A stretch of 29,886 bases of DNA from positions 337 through 30,222 of the IMG/VR virus record IMGVR_UViG_3300030104_001481. The stretch is one strand, 5' to 3'. The notes beneath the pieces were generated by a model. It saw only the letters and a list, made by a program, of their open reading frames with translations. It had not been told where the DNA came from and ran no database searches. Of this stretch, positions 19,871-29,664 are shown piece after piece (the first letter of the stretch is position 1; each line of letters starts with the position of its first letter). Position numbers and translations under genes: made by a program. Source of the DNA: a virus.

Positions 19871-21294
19871 TCCTTTAACTCTTCACCCATAACTTGTGTA
19901 GCTATATTAATTTTTTTGCGTAAAGCTTTTACTATTCTCTCATCAACTGTATCTTCTGCAATAATATCAATATAGGTCATTGGTCTTTTTTGACCAATAC
20001 GATCTATTCTAGCTTCAGACTGTTGTCTTTTCTCAAGGTCATAACCATTAGAATAATATATCATAGTGCTAGCTTCACTCAATGTAATACCATAACCACC
20101 TGTTTGTGGTGTGCCTACAATAAATCTTACAGGACTTTTAGGATCTTGAATAGACTTAATTGCTTTTTGTCTGTTTTCAACACTAGTATCACCATAGTAA
20201 GTTACAATAGAATTATCCCCATACTCTTTTGTTATATGTTTTACTATTGTTGCTATATCGTTCCTCCAATGTGCCCATATTACGACTTTACCGTGTATTT
20301 CATTAAGAACTTCCATTAACTCATCGATACGATTATTTTTAATTTCTTGTACGCTGCCATCATCAGCTTTGAAATGACCACAAGTAATTTGTTGTAAACG
20401 CATAAGTTGTGTCATTGTTGTGGCTGTTGTTGTCATCTTATCATTCATAACAGCTAAAGCCATTTGTTTCATTTGATTATAAAGTTTTTCTTGTTCACCG
20501 GATAATTGTATGACACGTTTCATAAAAGTCTTTTTAGGTAAATCTAAGCAATCGTCTTTTAATACTCTATAAGAAAAGTCTTTTAATTTATCAGATAGCT
20601 CTGGTATATTTCTATAACCAACTACAATCTGCACAGATCTACCGCCAAAATTAGCTGATCTCATTACAGCATATCTTGTTCTAAAACTATAGTATGAAGC
20701 ATGATTTAATAACCAAGGACTTAAAAATTCACATTGTGTATATAAGTCTAATGGTGATTTAGTTACAGGTGAACCTGTTAATATTCTTCTATACTTAGCT
20801 GATTCGCCTAGCTTAATAACAGACTTAGTTCTTTTAGCTTGAGGGTTTTTAATAGTCGTAGATTCGTCAATAGCCATTATAGTTTCATGGCAAGATAAAA
20901 ATTTATTAACAAAGTCTACACCTTTTTTAGTTGATAGAGCTTCTACATTTACAATCAATATGTGTAGTTCATGACTAGTCTTAAATAATTTAGATAGTTC
21001 TTTTTCTTGTTTTTTATTAACATTTGATTGCCACAATACAGACACATATTCGACATGATCTGCCATATGTGTAGGTATTTCTGTTTCGTGCCAGTTTTTA
21101 TAAACACCTTTTGGTGCCACAATTACAGCTCCGTTAATTTTACCCGCATCATATAACATTGATATGTTATCAATTAATACTTTAGATTTACCTGTACCCA
21201 TTTCCATAAAATAAGCGAAACATTCTTTATTCCAAGACATTTCCAACGCTTTTAATTGGTGTGCGTAAGGTGTTGTTTTAAACTTGTAGTTCAT
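19861..21294 (-). CDS. SNF2-family (SF2) DNA helicase/translocase
   Basis: 477 residues. Motifs in order: Y10/Q13 Q-motif-like (TPYAHQLKALEMSW), Walker A MGTGKSK (32-38), Ia VIVAPKGVYKNW (58-68), DExx box DEST (143-146), motif III LTGSP (172-176), then helicase domain 2 with VIWAHWRNDIATIV, the motif V-like GTPQTGGYGITLSEAS, and motif VI QSEARIDRIGQ (425-435). This is the SNF2/RapA-like set, and all ATPase residues look intact. Similar helicases occur in marine and lactic phages, presumably in recombination-dependent or fork-remodelling DNA synthesis. It is transcribed away from the replication cluster from a shared divergent promoter region, with a weak AAGAGA ribosome site. The only gene behind it is the two-TM protein. 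Confidence 0.88.
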   Translation of the reverse strand: MNYKFKTTPYAHQLKALEMSWNKECFAYFMEMGTGKSKVLIDNISMLYDAGKINGAVIVAPKGVYKNWHETEIPTHMADHVEYVSVLWQSNVNKKQEKELSKLFKTSHELHILIVNVEALSTKKGVDFVNKFLSCHETIMAIDESTTIKNPQAKRTKSVIKLGESAKYRRILTGSPVTKSPLDLYTQCEFLSPWLLNHASYYSFRTRYAVMRSANFGGRSVQIVVGYRNIPELSDKLKDFSYRVLKDDCLDLPKKTFMKRVIQLSGEQEKLYNQMKQMALAVMNDKMTTTATTMTQLMRLQQITCGHFKADDGSVQEIKNNRIDELMEVLNEIHGKVVIWAHWRNDIATIVKHITKEYGDNSIVTYYGDTSVENRQKAIKSIQDPKSPVRFIVGTPQTGGYGITLSEASTMIYYSNGYDLEKRQQSEARIDRIGQKRPMTYIDIIAEDTVDERIVKALRKKINIATQVMGEELKEWI

Positions 21295-28216: not shown

Positions 28217-28867
28217 ATGGCTTACTTAAATGCAAATATTCCTGTAACATACTCTCAAATAAGGAGAGAATATTTATATGACCTTAAAAAACATCACGGC
28301 GAAGTTGAAGATTGCATTATCTTTGGTATTACCTGTATTACAGGCCGTCCGATCTTATTCCATTGTATTATGGAAAACGGTGCGATCTTTTACAGACTTC
28401 CAATTTCTGCGTTTATTCAAAGAGGATTTAAACCAGAAGATGTTCCTAGGTATAGACTGGACGAATTGGAGTTATGGAATTCTTTTAGTTACTATCCTGC
28501 TGTTACTTCTTGGGATATCTTAGACGGACAATCTGGTAAATATATAGGTAAAGATAAAAAATGGCACGCAGGTGCTTATCTTTTCACAGTTGACTTTGCA
28601 CACCCAGAGAGTAATATAATAGATACAGATCATTCTGAAATTCCGCACGAACATAAGTGCGCTCACATACTTGCTTTAGACGATGGCAACTATGCGGCTC
28701 AGCCAAACAATAGACTAATATGGGATATACCATCTTTTACAGTTAAAGATGAAATTCCTGACTGGAAAGTCCAAACATCCGAATGGAATGTAGAGGACAC
28801 TCGTAAATGGAAAACGGAAGATACTGACAAGTTCTTCTATGAAATTGAGGAGAAAAAACATGATTAA
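28217..28867 (+). CDS. conserved phage protein of unknown function (HHGE...CIIFG family)
   Basis: 216 residues, MAYLNANIPVTYSQIRREYLYDLKKHHGEVED. Conserved-looking blocks: CIIFGITCITGRPILFHCIMENGAIFYRLPI, LELWNSFSYYPAVTSWDIL, AYLFTVDFAH, DTDHSEIPHEHKCAHILALDDGNYAAQPNNRLIW and a WKV...WNVEDTRKWKTED tail. I recognise this as a family widely distributed in marine and freshwater phages near DNA metabolism genes, without known function. The His-rich HSEIPHEHKCAH and HHGE segments could bind metal, but that is speculative. The gene starts two bases after the polymerase stop, and its last 8 bases overlap the next small gene. Confidence 0.8.
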   Translation: MAYLNANIPVTYSQIRREYLYDLKKHHGEVEDCIIFGITCITGRPILFHCIMENGAIFYRLPISAFIQRGFKPEDVPRYRLDELELWNSFSYYPAVTSWDILDGQSGKYIGKDKKWHAGAYLFTVDFAHPESNIIDTDHSEIPHEHKCAHILALDDGNYAAQPNNRLIWDIPSFTVKDEIPDWKVQTSEWNVEDTRKWKTEDTDKFFYEIEEKKHD

Positions 28868-28940
28868 AAAAATTTGGAATAAAATTAAAAGTTTATGGAA
28901 CAAATGGGTTGAATGGACTTTTAAAGGTTTTTATAAATAA
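28860..28940 (+). CDS. 26-aa Trp/Lys-rich amphipathic peptide
   Basis: 26 residues, too short for standard gene calling. A clear GAGGAG ribosome site lies about 8 bases before ATG, and the TAA overlaps the next ATG by one base. The peptide begins MIKKIWNKIKSLWNKW and has four Trp (6, 13, 16, 19), seven Lys, one Glu and terminal aromatic residues (F21, F24, Y25). Hydrophobic positions 2, 5, 6, 9, 12, 13, 16, 17, 21 and 24 fall on one helical face, with Lys on the other, giving a strongly cationic amphipathic helix. Such helices bind membrane surfaces; possible roles include membrane perturbation at lysis or anchoring of a partner. Function is unproven. Confidence 0.65.
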   Translation: MIKKIWNKIKSLWNKWVEWTFKGFYK

Positions 28941-29041
28941 TGATTAAGACCTGTAAAAAATGTAATCACAAATGCCATTGTTTAGGAGATCTTCATGCTG
29001 ATGAATATGGCGTTTGTACTTGTGAGAACTGTGAGTGCTAA
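28940..29041 (+). CDS. 33-aa eight-cysteine mini-protein, probably zinc-binding
   Basis: 33 residues, linked on both sides by 1-base TAATG overlaps. Cys at 5, 8, 12, 14, 26, 28, 31 and 33 with His at 10, 13 and 19: TCKKCNHKCHC, a short LGDLHADEYGV spacer, then CTCENCEC. Eight Cys in 33 residues in paired CxxC/CxC clusters imply one or two bound zinc ions in a metallothionein- or treble-clef-like mini-fold. I recall similar tiny Cys-rich proteins in marine phages, without known function. It could be a transcription or replication regulator, metal buffer or host-takeover factor. Cys is otherwise scarce in the window's proteins, which makes the composition stand out. Confidence 0.7.
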   Translation: MIKTCKKCNHKCHCLGDLHADEYGVCTCENCEC

Positions 29042-29664
29042 TGAACAAAATAAGTTTGCTTTTAGCATTAATCATCATATTCATAGGTGTAACTAACCAA
29101 GCACATAGTGCAAATTCACAAACAAACGTAAGTGGGTCTAACACAAGTATTGAAGGCGGATACACAGGTGGTGCAACAACGTACGAATCTGGGTCTTCTT
29201 CTAGTACAACTACAAATAGCACTAGTAATAGTAATATAAGATCAGCACCCCCAACATCTAGTGCGCCCTCTTTTAATTCTATGACACAAGATGTTTGTGC
29301 CGTAGGTGCATCAGCAGGTGTGCAAACGTTTGGTGTAGGTATATCTGGTGGCAAACATTTTATTGATAAAAATTGTGAAAGATTAAAGTTATCCAGAATA
29401 CTAAATGATTTTGGTATGAAGGTTGCAGCTGTAGCTATTTTATGTCAAGATGAACGTGTGTTTGAATCTATGATACAAGCAGGAACACCTTGTCCTATCG
29501 ACGGTAAGATAGGTAAAGACGCATTAGCATTGTGGAGTAAATACGACCACGAAAGACCAGACTATAAAACATATGTTAAGCGTATGAAGAAAAGAGAAAA
29601 AGTAGATAAAGAAAAAGAAATTAAAATTGAGAAGTTAAAACCGATCAATGTGGAAAAAAATTAA
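29041..29664 (+). CDS. exported protein with conserved Cys domain
   Basis: 207 residues from the ATG at 29041, chosen over an in-frame GTG at 29035 because it overlaps the preceding stop as TAATG and begins a proper signal peptide. Residues 1-24 (MNKISLLLALIIIFIGVTNQ then AHSA) form a Sec signal with an AHSA/N cleavage site. A Ser/Thr/Gly-rich disordered region follows to ~85. The C-terminal domain has DVCAVGASAGVQTFGVGISGG, KNCERLKLSRILNDFGMKVAAVAILCQDERVFESMI and AGTPCPIDGKIG, with four Cys that could form disulphides in the periplasm, then a Lys/Glu-rich tail. This domain recurs in marine phages, with no known function. A role at the periplasm or outer membrane (superinfection exclusion, lysis, envelope change) is inference. 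Confidence 0.75.
   Translation: MNKISLLLALIIIFIGVTNQAHSANSQTNVSGSNTSIEGGYTGGATTYESGSSSSTTTNSTSNSNIRSAPPTSSAPSFNSMTQDVCAVGASAGVQTFGVGISGGKHFIDKNCERLKLSRILNDFGMKVAAVAILCQDERVFESMIQAGTPCPIDGKIGKDALALWSKYDHERPDYKTYVKRMKKREKVDKEKEIKIEKLKPINVEKN

Follow-up and report, generated by a model that had tools for sequence, protein, structure and literature searches.

Disruptins are diverse, and the one from phage phiKT is a short amphipathic antimicrobial helix (PMC12819732); the phiKT work itself (Holt et al., 2022) is cited here after PMC12819732 and PMC9239132. Many marine phages, including marine cyanophages, have been listed as spanin-less, and the route by which they break the outer membrane has been raised as a question (Kongari et al., PMC6139136). 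In the phiKT record, gp28 (56 aa, net charge +7) is annotated between the endolysin and the holin. We take this protein to be the disruptin reported for phiKT.

The locus described here lies in a stretch of viral DNA of 29,886 nucleotides (the window), which corresponds to bases 337-30222 of an incomplete virus record of 38,047 bases. It encodes a peptide that resembles phiKT gp28 in being short, cationic and amphipathic without a signal sequence or lipobox, in lying, in many relatives, near endolysin and candidate holin genes, and in the occurrence of members or looser counterparts of its family in three isolates that, like phiKT, have no detectable lipoprotein. The two differ in length (26 vs. 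56 aa), Trp content (four vs. one), hydrophobic moment (0.84 vs. 0.52) and hosts, and the family of the window peptide additionally includes dual-start Cys-rich variants. As a short cationic amphipathic helix with neither a signal nor a transmembrane (TM) segment, the peptide fits the general description of a disruptin; no sequence relationship to gp28 was found, with gp28 matching phrog_35982 and the window peptide no PHROG, and on this ground, with the function itself still a proposal, we do not claim membership. Phage holins share with it, in many relatives, a lysis-module position and, in some, two in-frame starts, but the peptide has no TM segment (its longest charge-free run is 4 residues) and so does not class as a holin. 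Similarly, it would serve the same outer-membrane step as Rz/Rz1 and unimolecular spanins, but a lipobox, an N-terminal TM segment and a coiled coil are all absent from its sequence, and it does not class as a spanin.

The microprotein gene and its translation signals

The open reading frame translates to MIKKIWNKIKSLWNKWVEWTFKGFYK, which contains 4 Trp, 7 Lys and 1 Glu (net +6), and the residue counts given in an earlier sequence-only reading of this DNA are correct. That reading had also described a strong ribosome site and stop/start coupling to the next gene, and both are present: GAGGAG, a motif likewise found in relatives, precedes the ATG by 7 nt, and the stop codon (28938-28940) shares one base with the following ATG. 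The start codon lies inside the end of the upstream 216-aa gene, here called gene A (Table 1). An alternative in-frame ATG at 28839 is kept in just 11/46 relatives, whereas 43/46 have the ATG that overlaps the upstream gene by 8 nt, and position 28860 is therefore the likely start.

Table 1. Features at the microprotein locus (window coordinates).
Feature	Position	Strand	Basis or remark
Gene A, phrog_3704 (PurM / ferredoxin labels in phage records)	28217..28867	+	overlaps microprotein by 8 nt
Shine-Dalgarno (SD) GAGGAG of microprotein, within 3' end of gene A	28847..28852	+	sequence; relatives
26-aa cationic Trp-rich amphipathic microprotein gene	28860..28940	+	ORF, SD, conserved start, amphipathicity, pN/pS, homologues
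33-aa Cys-rich ORF	28940..29041	+	coupled by TAATG
Exported 207-aa protein (SNT)	29041..29664	+	recurrent microprotein neighbour; also isolate HTVC033P (gp46)

The clean hydrophobic face reported in the sequence-only reading is borne out by the helical wheel, where I2, I5, W6, I9, L12, W13, W16, V17, W19, T20, G23 and F24 fall inside 160 degrees, all strongly hydrophobic residues at positions 2-19 lie on this face, and Lys, Glu, Ser and Asn occupy the opposite side. Only 0.08% of same-composition shuffles exceed its hydrophobic moment, and the moment is significant at the 5% level in 35/50 distinct short ORFs from the equivalent position in relatives. An ORF of this kind exceeds chance expectation: ORFs of 18-40 aa with at least 4 Trp and a net charge of at least +5 number 1 in the window and 0.02 per first-order Markov copy of it, and Trp makes up 10.6% of residues in the family vs. 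0.7% in the long ORFs of the window. AlphaFold predicts a single helix for a 37-aa form (residues 2-35, mean pLDDT 88.5).

A family of amphipathic helices behind gene A

To follow the gene across relatives, we used 80 IMG/VR loci that share gene A and were collected blind to the peptide, 78 of which are informative for the slot behind it; slot ORFs were assigned to classes by our own sorting. A cationic amphipathic helix occupies the slot in 60 of the 78, free in 46 (18-40 aa) and joined to a small Cys-containing part in 14, either as a C-terminal tail (6/78) or as a Cys-rich domain fused in frame ahead of the helix (8/78). The other slots hold a 33-aa mini-TM protein (8/78), the M15 endolysin itself (4/78), a Cys-rich ORF alone (3/78) or other content (3/78). 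The sequence-only reading had suggested searching for the microprotein between homologous flanking genes, testing for an excess of synonymous change, and taking frameshifts or stops between conserved flanks in relatives as evidence against a gene. The helix family was recovered behind the shared gene A, and no frameshift erosion of the slot was seen: each of the 18/78 slots without a helix holds either the endolysin or some other small gene that is intact.

Synonymous change dominates in five helix groups. The 26-aa group to which the window peptide belongs has a pN/pS of 0.10 over codons 4-17, which the search pattern does not cover, and the remaining four have 0.21, 0.28, 0.37 and 0.44; a value of 0.94 in one group of five near-identical 18-mers rests on few synonymous changes and is uninformative. 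Purifying selection on the family is therefore clear, with pN/pS of about 0.1-0.4. Scans of viral stretches with C-terminal module patterns returned 114 matches for FKGFYK, 71 for WLFSWQK and 8 for FTAGLDK, and the FKGFYK pattern had no match in bacterial or archaeal genomes. Searches of Pfam, PHROGs and NCBIfam with the peptide returned no credible family, and a PDB sequence search gave chance matches only. The sole tblastn match of the peptide among phage records was HTVC033P (E=0.2), and searches of this type with other family members gave chance matches in unrelated phages. Collectively, these data make it nearly certain that the ORF is a real, conserved and mostly unannotated gene of HTVC023P-like and related marine phages, abundant in the ocean, whose hosts are Pelagibacter-type bacteria.

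Three Pelagibacter phage isolates carry a family member or a looser counterpart, unannotated in two of them. The HTVC033P helix, MIQKIKEKIKNLWAKFVDWLFSGYDK, is unannotated (locus L085, 109-189; record positions 20554-20631 plus stop) and exemplifies a peptide class that gene callers miss. In HTVC027P, the family's position is taken by gp12, a Cys-rich/WWKKIISWLT protein followed by gp13-gp16 and then a peptidase M15 (gp17). The HTVC023P slot holds an unannotated, Trp-free amphipathic 30-mer (L083, 6741-6833), which may be only an analogue.

Across relatives, the Cys-rich domain stands before the helix, after it, or in an in-frame fusion with it. In seven of the eight in-frame Cys-rich/helix joins (L011, L012, L019, L021, L029, L063 and L080), an ATG inside the gene, with a strong SD of its own, stands directly before the helix, as in L063 (AAAGGAGGACAACATG); this internal start is absent from L069 and from HTVC027P gp12. 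The arrangement suggests that most Cys-rich joins, too, probably yield the free helix, which appears to be the functional product; the longer Cys-rich form may have a separate role, as in dual-start holins.

Gene orders and candidate roles

The helix recurs in three gene orders. The first, which includes the window, runs from gene A through the helix, a variable block, the phrog_20984 single-TM protein and phrog_24646 to an M15 endolysin, the block consisting of a 103-aa TM/coiled-coil protein (TM103) with an exported 162-aa protein, of the Cys-rich ORF with the exported SNT, or of an 83-aa TM protein. In the second, a late basic protein precedes the helix, the same TM proteins follow, and gene A is relocated to just before the M15 endolysin, leaving the helix with the TM genes. 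The third order (L239, L260, L272, L284, L286 and isolate HTVC033P) comprises a virion protein, a 71-aa coiled coil with a C-terminal TM segment, an Amidase_2 endolysin (phrog_822), a 128-aa two-TM protein, a coiled-coil protein and the helix. No neighbour is more constant than the phrog_20984 protein, at most 1 kb downstream in 35/39 loci. TM103 resembles the phrog_1296 holin (E=4.5e-4), a downstream TM/coiled-coil protein has a weak Rz resemblance (E about 0.02), and one of the exported neighbours weakly matches a superinfection-exclusion profile (E=0.014).

Lysis genes lie near the peptide in many relatives and in HTVC033P and HTVC027P. Of 21 FKGFYK loci whose sequence continues downstream for 3 kb or more, 18 have the M15 endolysin (phrog_894, lysis) at most 4.5 kb away; that of the window's record (32789-33259) lies 3.5 kb downstream, outside the window. 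Under a strict 2.5-kb rule 16/30 loci have an endolysin nearby, modestly more than the 9.8 obtained when positions are drawn at random on those contigs. Against a lysis role, no M15 or amidase gene lies inside about 4-5 kb at several loci of the WLFSWQK sub-clade, and longer records related to this sub-clade have one M15 gene each, in some far from the peptide.

Neither phiKT nor the isolates HTVC023P, HTVC027P and HTVC033P, whose genomes are complete, gave a lipoprotein (o-spanin or u-spanin) candidate in a lipobox scan that was validated by recovery of the T7 o-spanin gp18.7. The Rz-like spanin profiles phrog_739 and phrog_89 were silent in the pelagiphages, yet they also missed the T7 control, so that this silence is uninformative. 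The window's record encodes two small lipoproteins with the lipobox LTSC (73 and 54 aa, at about 34807 and 35212; L087, 6808 and 7213), with no obvious i-spanin adjoining; because of these two ORFs and the incompleteness of the record, the window's genome could encode an o-spanin.

Taken together, conservation, amphipathicity and the predicted helix make it very probable that the peptide is a membrane-active microprotein, as the sequence-only reading had proposed; the specific roles it named are supported in part. Of these, a lysis helper agrees best with the genomic context, through M15 or amidase and TM-protein genes in three gene orders, weakened by the sub-clade without a nearby endolysin, and a disruptin-like lysis helper is our best single mechanism, held tentatively at close to even chances. 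A membrane depolariser would also be compatible with the data. The gene would border a set of lysis-associated genes and, as its overlap and SD suggest, be translated through coupling to the preceding gene. The product is predicted to fold as one helix on the membrane with Trp at the interface, and the free helix would bind and disturb membranes late in infection; after holin and endolysin action it might reach and break the outer membrane in place of spanins, a step that falls to the disruptin in coliphage phiKT. Membrane action, timing and target membrane are all steps that we infer. Replacement of the helix by a mini-TM protein or another gene in 18/78 slots counts against the disruptin-like role, as do the two small lipoproteins of the window's record, the lack of a sequence relationship to phiKT gp28 and the Trp-free slot ORF of HTVC023P. 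A broader proposal is quite unlikely as a whole: free Trp-rich amphipathic lysis peptides would form a large family that diversifies fast and would break the outer membrane for marine phages without spanins, and the dual-start Cys-rich form would restrain the peptide until lysis. How spanin-less marine phages break the outer membrane (asked in PMC6139136) could be addressed directly with a conserved, easily synthesised peptide of 18-37 aa, and the family offers many natural variants for comparison.

A rival reading takes up the anchor for a partner named in the sequence-only reading: the helix would dock on the inner membrane either one of the downstream TM proteins or a small protein that is rich in Cys and probably binds zinc. 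The in-frame joins in 8/78 relatives and in HTVC027P gp12, together with the Cys-rich ORF adjoining the helix in the window, point this way, but a pure anchor is weakened by the internal starts, which would release the free helix as if it were made separately, and at many loci the Cys-rich partner is unlike the others or absent, with TM proteins directly following the helix. Moreover, a simple amphipathic tether needs less than a net charge of +6 and four Trp, and we regard the anchor as fairly unlikely. A role as holin regulator or partner, with the helix and the long dual-start Cys-rich form setting the time at which adjacent single-TM proteins form holes, in the manner of dual-start holin/antiholin pairs, is favoured by the constancy of the phrog_20984 protein, the dual starts, the holin resemblance of TM103 and the occupation of the slot by mini-TM proteins; it is nevertheless unlikely, given that a TM segment is lacking in the helix and the holin among its neighbours is only putative. 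Exported neighbours, including the one with the weak superinfection-exclusion match, and the loci without an endolysin nearby are consistent with a peptide for host takeover or exclusion, whose target would be the inner membrane of the host (through depolarisation, transport or superinfection exclusion) rather than lysis; this role is made improbable by the recurrent placement near endolysins across different gene orders. A translation-coupling or leader ORF with an irrelevant product would be short and overlap both neighbours, as this one does, but it would explain neither the purifying selection on amino acids, nor the Trp enrichment, nor the persistence of the helix where the gene upstream is an unrelated one; it is almost certainly wrong, and the leader-ORF and chance-ORF readings were both rejected on the pN/pS and family evidence.

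Gene A and the mini-TM occupant of the slot

The 33-aa mini-TM protein (e.g., MIKKVKDKALHYWANHKIESIVFVILVVALIVK) stands in the helix slot right after gene A in L006, L030, L042, L044, L046, L058, L061 and L075, with the same start overlap as the helix and a pN/pS of 0.21.

The nearest isolate relatives of gene A, in Pelagibacter phages HTVC027P and HTVC023P, are ~60% identical, and a Pfam search with it matched no family, so that its PurM and ferredoxin labels both look unsafe. Nested in its +1 frame is an 81-codon ORF (28278-28523, + strand) that ends in a hydrophobic segment. This frame is open in 79/79 relatives (window included), with exactly 81 codons in 78, vs. 0.92 expected (maximum 3) under synonymous resampling of gene A codons. 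It is not open in Mosig, HTVC033P or 023Pt_psg01, and is open in HTVC027P and HTVC023P. The start codon is mostly ATG, with some ACG or TTG, and the nested ORF is likely an overlapping membrane-protein gene.
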